From Gemmatimonadota bacterium (GTDB taxonomy: Bacteria > JAAXHH01): 46,550 nucleotides of DNA. Every line of letters begins with the position of its first letter. Position 1 is the first letter of the stretch. Location of the stretch: assembly GCA_026702745.1 (NCBI GenBank), contig JAPPBT010000001.1, positions 1-46,550 on the forward strand. Direction: 5' to 3'. This document shows positions 111 through 7,275 of the stretch, in pieces. Position numbers and translations under genes: made by a program. The notes below the pieces were generated by a model. It did not search any database. It was not told the origin of the DNA and saw only the letters and a list, made by a program, of their open reading frames with translations.

Positions 111-2615
111 TCAGTGCGGGATGTTCAACTCGTGCATGCGCCGGTGGATGGCTTCACGGGCCTGCACGTAGGGCGCTTCGAGGAAGGCCTCGTGGTCGTC
201 GCCGCCGTGATGGTGGGTCGTCGTGCCCGGCTTGTGCTGCCAGCTCCGGCGCTTGATGTAGGACAGGCCCCCTTCGATCAGGCTCAGCATGTACTGGGCG
301 TTCTCCAGGTCGAACAGCCAGTAGGGGCCCCCGCAGGCCACGTAAACCGGCGACGTATGGGCCATGATGCCCCGGCGCCAGCCGTCGTGGTGCGGTATGC
401 TCGAGTAGTTCGGCCCGGCGCACCGCGCCGCCAGCCAGGTGTGGCCTTCGATTTTCAGCGAGGTCCTGAGCGACAGCCGCCGGGTGCCATTGCGCTCTTC
501 CGCCGACGCGACCACCCGGCCCTGCTGGACGATTTCCAGCGTATGGATCGGCAACGTCGAATCCGCCGACGCCTCGATCTCGACCGTCCCGCCGTTGCCG
601 GGCAGATTCACCGTGTCGCCGATATCCTGGCCGTTCACCTTGAAACGGATGATGGGTCCGGCGCTCAGGAAGGTGTTCCCGCCGCGCAGCGCTTTGCACC
701 AGTTGTCGTAGGTAAAGGGCTCGTCCGGTGGGATGTAGGCGTAGGTCCGGTAGATCCCCACGGGCACGTCGCTGGACATTTTGTCCGTCCCGCCCGCGAG
801 CGGTAGCCTGTACCCGCAATTCAGGTACCGATAGTACTCCAGGTGGTTGTATTCGCTATGGACCAGCATCTCCACGGCGTCGGCGCGGTCCGTGGCGATC
901 AGGACCGCCGGTTCGCAGATGGGATTGGGGATGTGGGGGATCACGACCGTCCCGCCCTGGGCGTGGCAGGCGTCGGCCCAGTACGACAGGGTCGTTTCCA
1001 GGTTGCCGCCCAACTCGGCCTCACCGGGTCCGTCCGAACACCAGGGCATGACCGGTTCCTTGAGGCCCAGGAGCGACAGGTGGCCCAGGATGTGCTGCCG
1101 GTTCTCCTGCGTGGCATACACGATCGTATCGCCATCCGGAGCCACGTTCGCCGATCCCGTGAATTCCTCGGTATTCGTGAAAAGGCCTCCCCACTGGGAG
1201 AGCAGGAGGTTGACCACGTTCAGGTCTTCTCCTTTGGCTTCGAGCTGGGCGCCCTGGGTGGAGAGGAAATGCACGTGGGTGTCGCCGCTGAAGTACCGTT
1301 CCGCGTTCAGATCGGTCCAGCGCTTGAGCCGCAGGGTGAGTTCGCGCTGACCGGGTTCGATGTGGACGCGCTCGCGAATCGGTTCGTACTCGAATCCGCG
1401 GGCCACGTCCACGTGCACTTCGCCCCGGGGCAGCCAACCCTGGCATTTGCCGTCGATGTAGGCGTAGGACATCTGGCCCAGGCGCACGTCGCCGCCCACG
1501 TCCACGTGCCAGGTATCCAGATTCGAGTTTACGTGGGCATGGTGGCCGTGCGGGGCGTAGGGCACGCCGCGGGCCGACCGGAAATGCACCCGGCACGGGA
1601 CGGGCTTGCCCGTCTCGTCGTCCAGCACCGTGGTATGTACCCAGTTCCGGCCCGTGTCGATGACCTCGAACCGCACCGAGGGAGTCTCGACGACCTCTTT
1701 GGCCTCCAGCTCCCCCCAGTTGGCCGAACCGACCGCCTTCCCATCCTGCTTCACCGTTACGGTGGCCGACGGCGTGCCGGCCACGCCCACGTGGGCGGGA
1801 CTGGCGCGATGGGTGTCCGCCTGGCCCCATCCGCGGTGCGTGTCGGTCAGGAAAGCCTGGTCGACCTGATCGGGCAGCGGATAGGCGTACGTCGCGTAGC
1901 CCCGGTCGACTTCCACATCCAGGTTGAAGGGCTTCCCCGCGTCCTCCGGATGCTTGAGCTCGATCTGGACGTCCCGGGCAGCCCACCGGCAGATGGGATC
2001 TTCGTCGACATGGCCGAGCGTAACGGCGGCCACGACGAAGGGCGGGCCCTGCGGCGTGATTTCAATCGAACGGATGCTCTGGTCGGGATGAGGATTGCGC
2101 CAGGCCCAGAGATAGTAACCGCGCGGCCACCCTTGCTCCGCCTCTGTCTGCCGGCGGCCCGCGTCGCTCCAGTCGCCGCCCGCCCGGCTGTAGGTCGACG
2201 GCTTCTCGTCCGGGACGCAGAGAAAGGGATACTGCCCCCAGGGTAGGGGCATGTAGCCGATTTCGAATCGTTCACGGATCGTAACGGATTCGGCGCGTCC
2301 GTCGTCCCAGACGAACCGGTACGTGGCCACGGGAAGGGCGATCGGGCCACCCGCCTCGATCTCCGATCGGATCACCGCGTGGGCGAAAACCACGTTGACC
2401 GCGGCATGGCCGACCGGAATCTCGACGGACTCGGACGGACAGCCCACCTCGGACCCGAAGCCGATGAAGCAGTCGGTTTCTCCGGTTCCGTCGCCGATTT
2501 GAAAGGGCAGCCCGTAGAATTCCTGCGATCCCAGGGGAGGATCGGCAATGGAATCGTATACGCACCGGTTCGCGTTGTAAATCGGGGTGAGGTCCAGGGG
2601 CTGGTAGTCCGGCAT
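111..2615 (-). CDS. CehA/McbA-family PHP-like metallohydrolase
   Basis: Large protein of 834 residues. The middle carries a PHP-type metal-binding start motif, GDTHVHF (about residue 442), followed by further His/Asp/Glu positions such as HIPNP and the GGTDKMSS stretch near residue 610, as in the CehA/McbA branch of the PHP superfamily, whose characterised members hydrolyse esters such as carbaryl. The N-terminal 400 residues look like beta-sandwich modules, and a short immunoglobulin-like segment follows the catalytic domain. No clear signal peptide is visible. It is the last gene of a minus-strand group, 26 bp after the STAS gene, and its stop codon lies inside a 7-bp GC-rich hairpin (98-120). 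Family placement is fairly secure; the substrate is unknown. Confidence 0.75.
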   Translation of the reverse strand: MPDYQPLDLTPIYNANRCVYDSIADPPLGSQEFYGLPFQIGDGTGETDCFIGFGSEVGCPSESVEIPVGHAAVNVVFAHAVIRSEIEAGGPIALPVATYRFVWDDGRAESVTIRERFEIGYMPLPWGQYPFLCVPDEKPSTYSRAGGDWSDAGRRQTEAEQGWPRGYYLWAWRNPHPDQSIRSIEITPQGPPFVVAAVTLGHVDEDPICRWAARDVQIELKHPEDAGKPFNLDVEVDRGYATYAYPLPDQVDQAFLTDTHRGWGQADTHRASPAHVGVAGTPSATVTVKQDGKAVGSANWGELEAKEVVETPSVRFEVIDTGRNWVHTTVLDDETGKPVPCRVHFRSARGVPYAPHGHHAHVNSNLDTWHVDVGGDVRLGQMSYAYIDGKCQGWLPRGEVHVDVARGFEYEPIRERVHIEPGQRELTLRLKRWTDLNAERYFSGDTHVHFLSTQGAQLEAKGEDLNVVNLLLSQWGGLFTNTEEFTGSANVAPDGDTIVYATQENRQHILGHLSLLGLKEPVMPWCSDGPGEAELGGNLETTLSYWADACHAQGGTVVIPHIPNPICEPAVLIATDRADAVEMLVHSEYNHLEYYRYLNCGYRLPLAGGTDKMSSDVPVGIYRTYAYIPPDEPFTYDNWCKALRGGNTFLSAGPIIRFKVNGQDIGDTVNLPGNGGTVEIEASADSTLPIHTLEIVQQGRVVASAEERNGTRRLSLRTSLKIEGHTWLAARCAGPNYSSIPHHDGWRRGIMAHTSPVYVACGGPYWLFDLENAQYMLSLIEGGLSYIKRRSWQHKPGTTTHHHGGDDHEAFLEAPYVQAREAIHRRMHELNIPH

Positions 2616-2641
2616 GAGGGCCTCGGGCTCCGGTTTGATCG

Positions 2642-2983
2642 TCAGGCGAGCATGTTTTCCACGGCGGCGTCTACATCGTCATACGTCTTGAAGACCGTAT
2701 ATAGCCGGGTGATCCGGAACAGATGATCCAGCCGGTCGTTGACGCCTGTGAGCACCATTTCCCCGTCCCGGGATCGAATCTTCTTCATGGCCGCGATCAG
2801 CGAACCCAGTCCGGAACTATTCATGATGGGCACGCCGGTCAGATCGGCGACGAACCGCGTGCAGCCCCGGGTCAGGGTGTCTTCGATCATCCGGTCCAAC
2901 TCGACGGTGTCGCCTTCTTCCCACAACCTGCCCTCGATGCGAAGCACGGCGATTTCGTCTTCCAGCGAAACGTAGATGTTCAT
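2642..2983 (-). CDS. STAS-domain anti-sigma factor antagonist
   Basis: 113 residues spanning a single STAS domain (SpoIIAA/RsbV type). The phosphorylatable serine motif is visible as IMNSSGLGSL around residues 53-62, preceded by the typical strand VADLTGVP. In this family the unphosphorylated protein binds an anti-sigma kinase and releases a sigma factor or other partner; partner switching is cytoplasmic. No kinase or phosphatase partner is encoded nearby, so its circuit cannot be read from the window. It sits between the selenoprotein gene (34 bp upstream) and the CehA-like gene, in one minus-strand run. An AAGG ribosome site precedes the ATG. Confidence 0.85.
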   Translation of the reverse strand: MNIYVSLEDEIAVLRIEGRLWEEGDTVELDRMIEDTLTRGCTRFVADLTGVPIMNSSGLGSLIAAMKKIRSRDGEMVLTGVNDRLDHLFRITRLYTVFKTYDDVDAAVENMLA

Positions 2984-3017
2984 ACCAACCTTAATCCTCG
3001 CTGCAGATGAATGCGCG

Positions 3018-3257
3018 TCAGCCCGCGATCGATGCCTCGATGACGTCCTTGACCTCCGCGTATTCCGGAAACCGATCGGCCGCCAGCTTGGAGAAGATCA
3101 GCGAGTCATCCACCGTGACTTCGAACCTGCCTCCTCCGGAAGGCACGAGCTGCAGCTGTTCGATATCGTGTTTGTAGTACTCCAGCAGTTTCACCGCCAA
3201 CCCGGCGGCGTCTTGTTCGTAGCTTCAATCAGCGCAGTAAACGATACGTACGATCAC
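3018..3257 (-). CDS. SelW/Rdx-family selenoprotein, in-frame UGA read as Sec
   Basis: Small thioredoxin-fold redox protein of the SelT/SelW/SelH (Rdx) family. A plain reading gives only a 60-residue fragment starting at 3200. Reading upstream through one TGA (3225-3227) gives 79 residues that begin at a GTG (3255-3257) placed behind a strong AAGGAGG site (3263-3269). The TGA is codon 11 and forms a C-x-x-U motif, CADU, exactly where the family has its redox CxxC/CxxU pair. The downstream part matches the family closely: VPSGGGRFEV and a FPE motif near the end. A hairpin suited to a bacterial SECIS follows the TGA. First gene of the minus-strand group with the STAS and CehA genes. The only alternative is a degraded pseudogene, which the intact motif, start and ribosome site argue against. 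Confidence 0.82.
3192..3210 (-). promoter_or_regulatory. Candidate bacterial SECIS hairpin
   Basis: Starting 14 nt after the in-frame TGA, the minus-strand RNA can form a 7-bp stem (one G-U pair) closed by the 5-nt loop GGGUU; the core is CCGCC/GGCGG. The loop starts with G and lies 21 nt after the UGA, inside the 16-37 nt range described for bacterial SECIS elements. The hairpin lies within coding sequence, as bacterial SECIS elements do. Confidence 0.65.
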
Positions 3258-3435
3258 CGTGTCCTCCTTGAACGCAGGGTGCGGCCGGCAGCCGGATCGG
3301 CTGCACACGTCAGAAACTATATAAACATGGGATAGACGACATGGCAAGGATTCTGAACAGCGTCACCCGGGTCCGGCCTGGCCACGGGTCGGTATGTCCC
3401 GGGTCCGGCCCGACCACGGGTCTATTCATTCGCGC
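3258..3435. repeat. Intergenic spacer with a 25-bp direct repeat
   Basis: Between the divergent selenoprotein and tatA genes. Two copies of a 25-bp GC-rich unit (3366-3390 and 3398-3422) match at 23 positions with a 32-bp period; each begins CCCGGGTCCGGCC and ends CCACGGGTC. Probably a small tandem duplication. No gene is visible here. Confidence 0.6.
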
Positions 3436-3464
3436 TTGACAAGACGGGTCGATAAGGGTATTCT
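3436..3464 (+). promoter_or_regulatory. Sigma70-type promoter of tatA
   Basis: A perfect -35 box TTGACA (3436-3441), a 17-bp spacer and a -10 box TATTCT (3459-3464). Transcription would start near 3471, so the tatA mRNA would begin at or just before its GAGGAGG ribosome site. Confidence 0.7.
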
Positions 3465-3485
3465 CAATGCGAGGAGGTGATTTAC

Positions 3486-3680
3486 ATGCTAGGTAGTTTC
3501 GGCACGACCGAACTGATTATCATTCTTGTCATCGTCATGATCCTTTTCGGTGCGAAGAAGCTTCCCGAACTGGCCAAGGGTCTGGGCCAGGGGATCACCG
3601 AGTTCAAGAAAGCACAGAATAAAGAGCCCTCCGAAGAGAAACAGGGTACCTCCGGCACGTCCGCCACGAAGGACGGCTGA
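3486..3680 (+). CDS. tatA: Sec-independent translocase protein TatA/TatE
   Basis: 64 residues with the standard TatA layout: a short N-terminus, a transmembrane helix (about residues 8-21, [20 protein letters not shown]), the F-G hinge and an amphipathic helix ([16 protein letters not shown]), then a charged tail. TatA multimers form the membrane part of the twin-arginine pathway that exports folded proteins. I start at the ATG at 3486, seven bases after the AGGAGG site; a GTG at 3477 overlaps that site and is unlikely. No tatB or tatC lies nearby, so this is a stand-alone tatA transcribed from its own promoter. Confidence 0.9.
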
Positions 3681-3681
3681 A

Positions 3682-3710
3682 CGTTGGTGTAGCAACGTGC
3701 AACGGTTTTT
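3682..3710 (+). terminator. Weak intrinsic terminator after tatA
   Basis: ACGTTG (3681-3686) can pair with CAACGT (3693-3698), or CGTTG with the second CAACG (3700-3704), followed by TTTTT at 3706-3710. The stem is short, so the call is tentative. Confidence 0.35.
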
Positions 3711-4114
3711 ACGGATGCGTACCGAAGCGCTTCTTCCGAGCGGTCAGGTCGGTTGAATCGACAGGGCGCCTGACCGTGTCTTGGGTCGTCAATCGGTGTT
3801 CCGGGACGCTTGCTGGTGTCCTGGGATACCTGCCGGTGGTCGAGGCAGCGGCTTCTGGCGCACCAGCCTACGTCGACCGACGCCGACCAGCCGGTATTTC
3901 CTCGCTTTACCCCGCAGTTCCTGCCTTCAGGTAATTCGTCAGTCATTATCCCGTACCGCCTGACAGGCCTCGTCGTCTACAGGTAACAAGTTATCCTCGA
4001 CATTCCTCGTTCCAGTACGTTGAATCCAAATTCGTACACAACCATTCCGGATCATAGCCGGTCACATACACAGAAGGCGCCCGCATAAGACGGCACTCTA
4101 CGCCAGGACACAAC
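3711..4114. other. Intergenic region, no gene recognised
   Basis: About 400 bases between tatA and the sigma factor gene. Short reading frames are present on both strands, but none has a convincing ribosome site or a protein-like sequence. I expect it holds the promoter of the sigma operon, possibly autoregulated as in many ECF systems, but I see no clear -35/-10 pair. Confidence 0.4.
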
Positions 4115-4774
4115 GTGGAATCTGCCCTCAAACTCGAAGGCCGAATCGCGCCGGACCATCAGGACGAAAACATGGAGATCGATTCGGCAAGGGATCGCAC
4201 GGACCTGGAGGATCGCAGGTTGATTCTCAAGGCAAGGGAAGGCGACGTGCGGGCCTTGGAAGATCTGGTCTACCGATACGACGAGAAAGTGCTGTCCATG
4301 GCCATGTCCTTCGTGGGTGACATGGACGATGCCAAGGACATCTACCAGGAAGTCTTCATGCGATTGTTAAAAGCCCTTCCAAAATTTGAATTCCGCAGCC
4401 GGTTTTCGACCTACTTGTACAGGATCGTCACCAATGTCTGCCTTACGCACCGAACACGAGATGGAAAAAGGCGCTTCGTCCCGATCGAAGACGAGCAGGG
4501 AGAAGACCATGACTCGACGAAACAGGGGGTTACACTCCATTCCCCCGATCGGTCGGACGCGGCCGTCATCAACCACGAAATCGCTTCACGGATACGTGCC
4601 GCCGTCAGCACCCTATCGCCCCGGCTGCGAACCGTGTTCGTGCTGCGTCACCACGAGGGATTCAAGCTGAGGGAAATCGCAGGCATCATGGAATGTGCCG
4701 AAGGCACCGTGAAGAAATACCTATTCGACGCCACCCGGCGGCTGCGCATTCAACTCGAGGACATACGAACATGA
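4115..4774 (+). CDS. RNA polymerase ECF-type sigma factor (RpoE-like)
   Basis: Group IV sigma factor of up to 219 residues. Region 2 is clear: the DAKDIYQEVFMRLL segment (about residues 70-83) and FRSRFSTYLYRIVTN, which binds the -10 element. Region 4 (about 150-215) has the HTH LREIAGIMECAEGTVKKYLF. The linker between them is long and acidic. The GTG at 4115 gives the full frame; an ATG at 4172 (MEIDSARD) has an equally good AGGA site and may be the true start, giving 200 residues. Its stop overlaps the start of the anti-sigma gene in an ATGA, the normal coupling for ECF pairs. It probably controls its own operon and an envelope response. Confidence 0.9.
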   Translation: MESALKLEGRIAPDHQDENMEIDSARDRTDLEDRRLILKAREGDVRALEDLVYRYDEKVLSMAMSFVGDMDDAKDIYQEVFMRLLKALPKFEFRSRFSTYLYRIVTNVCLTHRTRDGKRRFVPIEDEQGEDHDSTKQGVTLHSPDRSDAAVINHEIASRIRAAVSTLSPRLRTVFVLRHHEGFKLREIAGIMECAEGTVKKYLFDATRRLRIQLEDIRT

Positions 4775-5766
4775 AAGAAGACCAGGACCGATCTCACGCG
4801 AAGTGGGAGGAATGGCTGGAACTCTCCCAGTACGGTGAACTGTCGGACGCGGATCAGCGAGCCCTTGACCGTCATCTCAAGGATTGCGCCCAGTGCCGGG
4901 CGTACCGGGTGCAGCTGGATCAATTCAGGATGGTCATGGCGCAGGCCGCCCCTGCGAAGCCTGGGGAATCGGACCTGCTCGATGCCCGAGCCAACCTGTG
5001 GTCCAGCGTGACGCTGGGCCGCTCCGAAAATCGCTTTTCCAATGGATGGCTGAGTAGTTTTGTCGATGGCCTGCAAGGACTTACGAACAGCGTTTTTCCA
5101 CAATACCGAACGGTGCTCGCAGGCGCGCTTCTGTTGTTTATCGGCCTGGCAGGCGGTTACTATCTGGCTTTCCAGGGCGACCGGACGCTCGGATTCGCGG
5201 CGCCGGGCATGGACCGGACGGACCTGCTGAACAACGATGACGTGGCCATCTCCAACGTCCGGTTCGTGGATTCCGACGTGTCCGACGGCACGCTGGGACT
5301 CCGGTTCGAAGCCGTCCGTCCCGTACAGATCATGGGACCGGTCGATGATCCGGAGATACAACGCATACTCACCTTTGCCGTGCTGAATGAGCAGAATCCC
5401 GGGGTCAGGCTTCGGGCGGTGAACGCCGTAAGTACTTCCGAACGCCTTCATTCGGATTTCGAGATCAGGGACGCCCTCGTCACGGCCTTGAAGACCGACT
5501 CGAACGCCGGCGTCCGCGGCGAGGCGTTCAACGCGCTGTCCCGGTATCCCTTCGACGAGGAAATCAGGGACGCCATGATCTACGCCTTGATGTTCGACGA
5601 CAATGCCGCGCTTCGGATCAGCGCGATCAACCGGCTCCAGGAGCAGGGACCGGCCTCATTCGATGAACAGCTGGAAAGCGTACTCAGGACCAGGATGGTT
5701 CTCGACGAGAACGCTTACATCCGCACGAAGGCAAGGACCGTGCTGAGCAATCTGTCCGCACCCTAA
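4771..5766 (+). CDS. Anti-sigma factor: zinc-finger, one TM helix, HEAT-like tail
   Basis: 331 residues, translationally coupled to the sigma gene by ATGA. The N-terminus is a ZAS-type anti-sigma domain with the zinc motif H35-x3-C39-x2-C42. One transmembrane helix follows at about 114-134. The outer part holds repeats such as NPGVRLRAVNAVS, NAGVRGEAFNALS and NAALRISAINRLQ, which are HEAT-like helical repeats spaced by about 31-37 residues. Architecture implies that the cytoplasmic domain sequesters the sigma factor while the periplasmic HEAT-like part senses a protein or envelope signal. The DUF4097-like secreted protein next door is a candidate target or effector. The function of the HEAT part is inference. 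Confidence 0.82.
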   Translation: MKEDQDRSHAKWEEWLELSQYGELSDADQRALDRHLKDCAQCRAYRVQLDQFRMVMAQAAPAKPGESDLLDARANLWSSVTLGRSENRFSNGWLSSFVDGLQGLTNSVFPQYRTVLAGALLLFIGLAGGYYLAFQGDRTLGFAAPGMDRTDLLNNDDVAISNVRFVDSDVSDGTLGLRFEAVRPVQIMGPVDDPEIQRILTFAVLNEQNPGVRLRAVNAVSTSERLHSDFEIRDALVTALKTDSNAGVRGEAFNALSRYPFDEEIRDAMIYALMFDDNAALRISAINRLQEQGPASFDEQLESVLRTRMVLDENAYIRTKARTVLSNLSAP

Positions 5767-5796
5767 AGGGACGCGGCCGATAAGGGAGTAGCCATA

Positions 5797-7275
5797 ATGA
5801 AACTTCTGATAACCACGATAGGCGTCTTGATAATTGCCCAGCAAGCCCTGACGCAGCAAGCACTGGCGCTCACGGAGGATCAGAACCGGGCTACGGGAAA
5901 CCGGACGGAGACCTTCCAGGTGGAAAGGGACGGTCGGCTCGACCTGAATACCCGCGCGGGCGATATCACGATCTCCACGTGGAGCAAAAATGAAGCGGTC
6001 GTGAACGTTCAAGGCGTCCCGGCGAGCGGTGCGGATGATCTGAGAATACGTTACGAAGGGGGCATACTGCGCGTCGATTACGACTCCAGGAGATGGTCGA
6101 TGAATCGAAGTAGGGGCCTGCGTTTCAAGATCGATCTGCCATCGGATTTCGACCTGGACCTGCGCACCGGCGGCGGCGATATCGAGGTCGTGGGCAACCT
6201 GGGCGGAGACGTGAGAAGCCATACTTCGGGCGGCGACGTAACGCTCCGGGATATCGGCGGTGACGTGGAGCTGACCACCTCCGGCGGAGACATCCGCGTG
6301 GGCACGGTCGGCGGCGACGTTCACCTGCAGACGTCGGGGGGCGACATCCGGGTCGAAAAGGCCTCGGCCGACCTGGACGTCCAGACCTCCGGCGGTGACA
6401 TCCGGATCGGCCACGTCGGCAATGAACTGGAAGCCCAGACTTCCGGTGGGGACATCACCATTGAATACGTAGGCGGAAAATCCCGGATCAGGACATCCGG
6501 CGGCGATATCGAGATAGGCGAACTCCTGGCGAATGCCCGAATCACCACGTCCGGCGGCGACATCGAGCTGCGCGACGCAAAGGGTGAATTGCAGGTGAAA
6601 ACCGCCGGGGGCGAGTTGGAGCTTCTGAATGTAACGGGGTCGATCGACGCGCGTACCGCTGGCGGTGAGATCCTGGCTGAAATCACTCCAGAGGGATCCA
6701 AGGGCAGCTCGCTCATTTCGGCCGGCGGCGACGTCGTACTCTACGTGGACCCGGAAGCGAAGGCGACCATCGAAGCGCGGATTCGCGTGGATAAGAAATC
6801 GAGATTCGGGGTGTTTCAAATGAGTCCACTGCCAGGTAGTGACGCGCCCATAATCATCGACATACCCGAAATTCCGATGATCGACACCGACCAGGCCGTT
6901 ACGAAAATCGACGAGGAAGAGTTGAAGGAGATTATCGAAAAGTTGACACGAAGCGTAAACGAGGCGGTACAGTTGTCGGCCGAAGAGGCGCAGCGGTTGC
7001 TGCAAGAGTTACAACGGGACCTGAGGACAGCACAGCGTGAGTTGCAGGCGGCACAGAGGAAGTCTGTCGAAGCGCAGAAGAAGATGATCCAAAACCGGAA
7101 CACCGTCAGAAGCTCGCTGCGATACAATATCCGGTCCGATTTCGAAGCGGAGCGCTACGATGTAGATGCGGATGAAGGGGAGATCAGCGCTACGTACACG
7201 CTCAACGGAGGCGGCGCCAGAATCTGGGTTGAAACCAGCGACAGCAATATTGAGATCCGCGAGTTGAATAAGTAA
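5797..7275 (+). CDS. Secreted DUF4097-like beta-repeat protein with C-terminal coiled coil
   Basis: 492 residues with an N-terminal hydrophobic signal-like segment (first 26 residues). Residues about 45-330 contain repeated beta-strand units with TSGGDI/RTSGGDI cores roughly every 17-21 residues, as in the putative adhesin domain DUF4097, a right-handed beta-helix-like fold. Residues about 365-435 are rich in E, Q, L and A and form a predicted coiled coil (KEIIEKLTRSVNEA to RKSVEAQKK). The last 60 residues return to beta strands. It follows the anti-sigma gene by 30 bp with an AAGGGAG site, so it belongs to the same operon. In other bacteria such proteins accompany envelope-stress sigma systems. 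It may be periplasmic or surface-exposed; the molecular role is unknown. Confidence 0.75.
   Translation: MKLLITTIGVLIIAQQALTQQALALTEDQNRATGNRTETFQVERDGRLDLNTRAGDITISTWSKNEAVVNVQGVPASGADDLRIRYEGGILRVDYDSRRWSMNRSRGLRFKIDLPSDFDLDLRTGGGDIEVVGNLGGDVRSHTSGGDVTLRDIGGDVELTTSGGDIRVGTVGGDVHLQTSGGDIRVEKASADLDVQTSGGDIRIGHVGNELEAQTSGGDITIEYVGGKSRIRTSGGDIEIGELLANARITTSGGDIELRDAKGELQVKTAGGELELLNVTGSIDARTAGGEILAEITPEGSKGSSLISAGGDVVLYVDPEAKATIEARIRVDKKSRFGVFQMSPLPGSDAPIIIDIPEIPMIDTDQAVTKIDEEELKEIIEKLTRSVNEAVQLSAEEAQRLLQELQRDLRTAQRELQAAQRKSVEAQKKMIQNRNTVRSSLRYNIRSDFEAERYDVDADEGEISATYTLNGGGARIWVETSDSNIEIRELNK

Follow-up and report, generated by a model that had tools for sequence, protein, structure and literature searches.

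A SelW-like gene of a Gemmatimonadota bacterium with an internal UGA almost certainly read as selenocysteine

A gene on the minus strand of the window, i.e. of the whole analysed stretch of 46,550 nucleotides, almost certainly encodes a bacterial SelW-like selenoprotein of the Rdx family. The window comprises all of contig 1 of the host genome, which totals 3.88 Mb in 102 contigs. An initial annotation had proposed that the host decodes UGA as selenocysteine in this gene. The selenocysteine machinery of the host, the fit and covariation of a SECIS hairpin, the alignment to Rdx proteins and the conservation of the TGA all support this proposal, and the gene is therefore almost certainly translated through the UGA.

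SelB-dependent delivery of Sec-tRNA(Sec) to a UGA via a hairpin is the established mechanism in bacteria. Translation would accordingly be expected to start at GTG 3257, and the complex SelB-GTP-Sec-tRNA(Sec), with SelB on the hairpin 3210-3192, would decode UGA 3227-3225. There the ribosome would add selenocysteine rather than stopping, until the second UGA (3020-3018) would end translation. The product would be a protein of 79 residues, probably with the thioredoxin-like fold of Rdx/SelW proteins, and its CxxU pair would most likely make it a thiol/selenol redox protein with an expected function as oxidoreductase.

Reading frame and protein family

The ORF finder reported an open reading frame of 60 residues with a TTG start (3200-3018). 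As described in the initial annotation, this frame is lengthened by 19 codons through a single TGA to a GTG at 3257-3255, with an AAGGAGG site ahead of it (3269-3263); the minus strand from 3269 to 3255 reads AAGGAGG-ACACG-GTG. Some members of the genus have an ATG one codon upstream of this GTG. The predicted protein begins with V I V R I V Y C A D [TGA] S Y E Q D A A G L A V K L L E Y Y, where the codons TGC-GCT-GAT directly before the TGA yield C-A-D-U and place the TGA at the second redox position. A second TGA terminates the gene. The 7-bp hairpin with the loop GGGUU begins 14 nt past the internal TGA. All sequence details given in the initial annotation were confirmed as correct (Table 1).

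Table 1. Positions of the SelW-like gene, its elements and its downstream neighbour in the window
Feature	Position	Strand	Remarks
STAS-domain anti-sigma-factor antagonist, downstream neighbour	2642..2983	minus	PF01740 55.7 bits, TIGR00377 59.8 bits
SelW-like / Rdx-family selenoprotein gene (predicted)	3018..3257	minus	79 aa, GTG start; one internal TGA on genome match
Bacterial SECIS hairpin (predicted)	3192..3210	minus	CGCCGCC-GGGUU-GGCGGUG; 7-bp stem; UGA-to-loop distance 21 nt
In-frame UGA, predicted selenocysteine codon, U11 of YCADU	3225..3227	minus	from translation; opposite second Cys of CxxC
First redox cysteine codon, C8 of CxxU	3234..3236	minus	invariant in alignment
Shine-Dalgarno AAGGAGG	3263..3269	minus	5 nt before GTG; conserved in genus

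The read-through protein is matched by the Pfam model Rdx (PF10262, 74.8 bits, cut-off 22.6) and by TIGR02174 CXXU_selWTH (64.8 bits, cut-off 34.2). Both matches span the TGA and cover the full domain on either side of it (model positions 1-73 of 74). The best-scoring NCBIfam model is NF041051, the SelT/SelW/SelH family (seleno)protein represented by Campylobacter SelTWH. However, its score of 78.2 bits falls below the equivalog cut-off of 88 bits and we therefore do not file the protein under this model. Solved Cys-type Rdx proteins (2fa8, 3dex, 2obk, 2oka, 2p0g, 2ojl) align over nearly the full length, with E-values down to 1e-9. An alignment to Rdx proteins had been proposed in the initial annotation; made residue by residue with 2fa8, 3dex and 2obk, it puts the U of YCADU opposite the second cysteine of YCTQC. 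Whereas these three structures are of the CxxC type, selenocysteine would here replace the second cysteine.

With the bacterial SelW-like family (TIGR02174/PF10262; PMC1088965, PMC1794560, PMC2398784) the gene shares the CxxU motif, the size, the full-length profile match and a bSECIS right after the UGA, and in both the Sec form outnumbers the Cys form in Sec-using bacteria. Nothing essential differs from this family; the host lineage is poorly characterised.

Conservation of the TGA and the SECIS hairpin

A search of 59 genomes yielded 17 Rdx matches. They stem from all 12 genomes of the genus, from another genus of its family and from four genomes at greater distance, and all 17 contain exactly one internal TGA and no other stop. 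Within the phylum of the host, an Rdx gene was present in 13 of 16 genomes, each with one TGA, and the same holds for 50 of 50 Rdx matches in a second phylum. Scanning with a four-sequence alignment detected a TGA at the CxxU position also in three loci from MAGs labelled Planctomycetota. In the genes extracted from relatives, the TGA sits at the same CxxU position. The TGA is thus paired with cysteine in a conserved manner: TGA in all 17 and 50 genome matches, cysteine in the solved homologues. We looked for a Cys form of Rdx among the genomes searched (17 and 50 matches) and met none, in line with the published statement that Cys homologues of SelW-like proteins are scarce or missing in Sec-using bacteria (PMC1794560). 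TGT or TGC in place of TGA, named in the initial annotation as evidence against selenocysteine, occurs in no Rdx gene of the lineage; all of them carry TGA.

Within the genus, variants between the start codon and the TGA number 0, 3 and 11 at codon positions 1, 2 and 3. This third-position bias indicates that the part upstream of the TGA evolves as a protein-coding sequence in this frame. The hairpin segment, nucleotides 13-33 past the TGA, shows only 1, 0 and 1 variants, and the 42 nucleotides after the hairpin 2, 2 and 11. The hairpin is near-invariant at all codon positions and therefore held at synonymous sites too.

Bacterial SECIS elements are modelled with a loop of 3-9 nt, a stem of 4-16 bp, a G in the first two loop positions, a UGA-to-loop distance of 16-37 nt and an MFE of at most -7.5 kcal/mol (PMC13188914). 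The predicted hairpin agrees with this model throughout (5 nt, 7 bp, GGGUU, 21 nt, fold of -13.2 kcal/mol), and comparison with the consensus loop pattern N1-G-[G/U]-N-N2 from the same source revealed no difference. An Rfam search of positions 2900-3500 returned no matching family. For the alignment of the hairpin, 31 distinct sequences were used that align gap-free; one family match was left out as it did not fit the extraction motif. Two positions are invariant in these 31 sequences, the apical-loop G in column 23 and the U in column 26. Of the alignment cells, 85% pair, and compensatory changes on both sides occur at five of the seven pairs. The covariation score was 0.355 compared to 0.151 +/- 0.022 after shuffling, with none of 500 shuffles reaching it, and slid pairing partners scored at most 0.127. 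RNAalifold independently recovered the same stem. In the Planctomycetota rows, pair 19-29 changes from G-C to A-U through an Ala-to-Thr and an Ala-to-Val substitution; pairing is thus kept despite the altered protein. Folding statistics of single sequences are weak. Compared to dinucleotide shuffles, the single-sequence stability showed no excess (z = -0.76). The synonymous-codon null is exceeded weakly by each single sequence (p about 0.07 for the present one), and combining seven distinct rows gave p about 0.008. Therefore, the structural argument rests on covariation and not on stability.

These data bear on the reading of the TGA as a true stop, according to which the gene is a pseudogene or yields only the 60-residue C-terminal ORF that starts at TTG 3200. 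Standard ORF calling indeed yields only this ORF. However, the codons ahead of the TGA change mostly at third positions and are conserved at the protein level, the Rdx profile covers both flanks of the TGA, the TGA is conserved together with the hairpin and the host possesses the full selenocysteine machinery (see below). We consider a true stop very improbable.

Motif and hairpin have to be judged against their frequency in the window. Sufficient open frame surrounds 169 TGAs, eight of which lie in a CxxU/UxxC motif, and two of these eight also have SECIS-like geometry; the sequence elements alone are only modestly above chance. The second candidate with CxxU and hairpin (19942, plus strand) lies antisense to a 310-aa ORF (20518-19586) and was rejected for this reason. 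This chance match is a warning against selenoprotein calls from the motif alone. For the SelW-like gene, chance is ruled out by the homology that spans the TGA and by the conservation of this codon in dozens of genomes.

Selenocysteine machinery of the host

The initial annotation had suggested searching for selA, selB, selC and selD, and all four were found in the host genome. Above the curated cut-offs we detected selA (C66:87060, 496.4 bits), selB (C66:57356-59284, 349.6 bits) and selD (C46:62395, 263.1 bits). A tRNA-Sec with the anticodon UCA lies about 40 nt past the selB match (C66:59324, 70.6 bits, above cut-off) and was also called as tRNA-SeC (tca) by ARAGORN; selA, selB and tRNA-Sec thus share one contig. 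The selD gene encodes an Ndh-SelD fusion with Cys instead of Sec in the active-site region (RCAGCG; L041:1396-3843, minus strand), the N-terminal part of which is a pyridine-nucleotide oxidoreductase that exceeds the TIGR03169 cut-off with 399.9 bits. Ndh-SelD fusions have been described for marine bacteria (PMC2398784). Of 16 genomes from the phylum of the host, 14 have a selB match above the cut-off.

The host genome also encodes a second SelA homologue, a divergent protein of 523 aa, at C79:57347-58714 (L085:10336-11907, minus strand). It reaches 167 bits with the selA model (cut-off 267.9) and 125.5 bits with Pfam SelA. On visual inspection, the PLP lysine found in SGDKLLGGPQ of true SelA seems to be absent from its sequence AAGGGLIGGPP. 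Its neighbours are a TIGR04282-type glycosyltransferase on one side and a class II aldolase on the other.

The UGA could also be read by another route, such as near-cognate read-through or a general reassignment, e.g. to Trp. For a single codon this would be compatible with the sequence alone, but the same gene terminates in TGA, the position is that of a redox cysteine in homologues, and both a SECIS hairpin and a tRNA-Sec(UCA) are present, which leaves this reading even less probable than a true stop. Least probable of all, to a negligible degree, is an ordinary CxxC Rdx protein whose TGT or TGC was turned into TGA by faulty sequencing or assembly. The genome is a draft in 102 contigs and Cys-type Rdx proteins exist, but the same TGA is conserved across separately assembled genomes, in all 12 from the genus and in each Rdx gene detected in other phyla, which excludes a sequencing error, and the SECIS hairpin covaries. 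Insertion of selenocysteine at UGA 3227-3225 is thus the predicted outcome.

Genomic neighbourhood and relation to known selenoproteins

The STAS gene follows 34 nt past the stop of the SelW-like gene on the same strand, and this adjacency is kept in eight other members of the genus that were examined. In the surrounding region, at 111-7275 of the window, the minus-strand order of a CehA/McbA-type hydrolase, STAS and SelW is kept across the genus over the extent of the loci compared. Within the same reach, the plus-strand order of tatA, a sigma factor and the ORFs 4693-5766 and 5797-7275 is kept as well, and the SelW-STAS-hydrolase set is divergent from tatA in the genus. The ORF at 5797-7275 encodes 492 aa with many TSGGDIR/TAGGE-type repeats and may specify a beta-repeat protein that is secreted or exposed at the cell surface. 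In comparison to the bacterial SelW-like family, the neighbourhood of STAS, CehA/McbA-type hydrolase and TatA is particular to the host lineage. The STAS neighbour is context and stands outside the recoding system. Given the fixed neighbourhood, the selenoprotein could feed redox signals into a partner-switching regulator, which we regard as unlikely. To our knowledge, no such role has been described for a bacterial SelW.

Bacterial SelW-like selenoproteins with CxxU have been described since 2005. In marine metagenomes they are the most abundant selenoprotein family, with 48 genes in the Sargasso Sea (PMC1088965) and 427 genes in the GOS data (PMC2398784); the function of the bacterial family was called unclear (PMC1088965). 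The novelty implied by the initial annotation was therefore not borne out, since this family is long known and very common. Among named records, the closest are MAGs that carry the label Gemmatimonadetes or Candidatus Latescibacterota, and these labels conflict. In the open-access literature, a search for selenocysteine together with Latescibacter- led to one substantive source, in which the phylum appears solely as a reconstructed bin.

The gene adds a well-supported SelW-like member from a MAG lineage labelled Latescibacterota/Gemmatimonadetes and is no new kind of system. Existing knowledge of selenoproteins is unchanged by this finding. In conclusion, our analysis documents likely selenocysteine use in this poorly characterised lineage, supplies a SECIS alignment for SelW-like genes that is backed by covariation, and provides an example of a gene whose active site is lost when UGA is treated as a stop.
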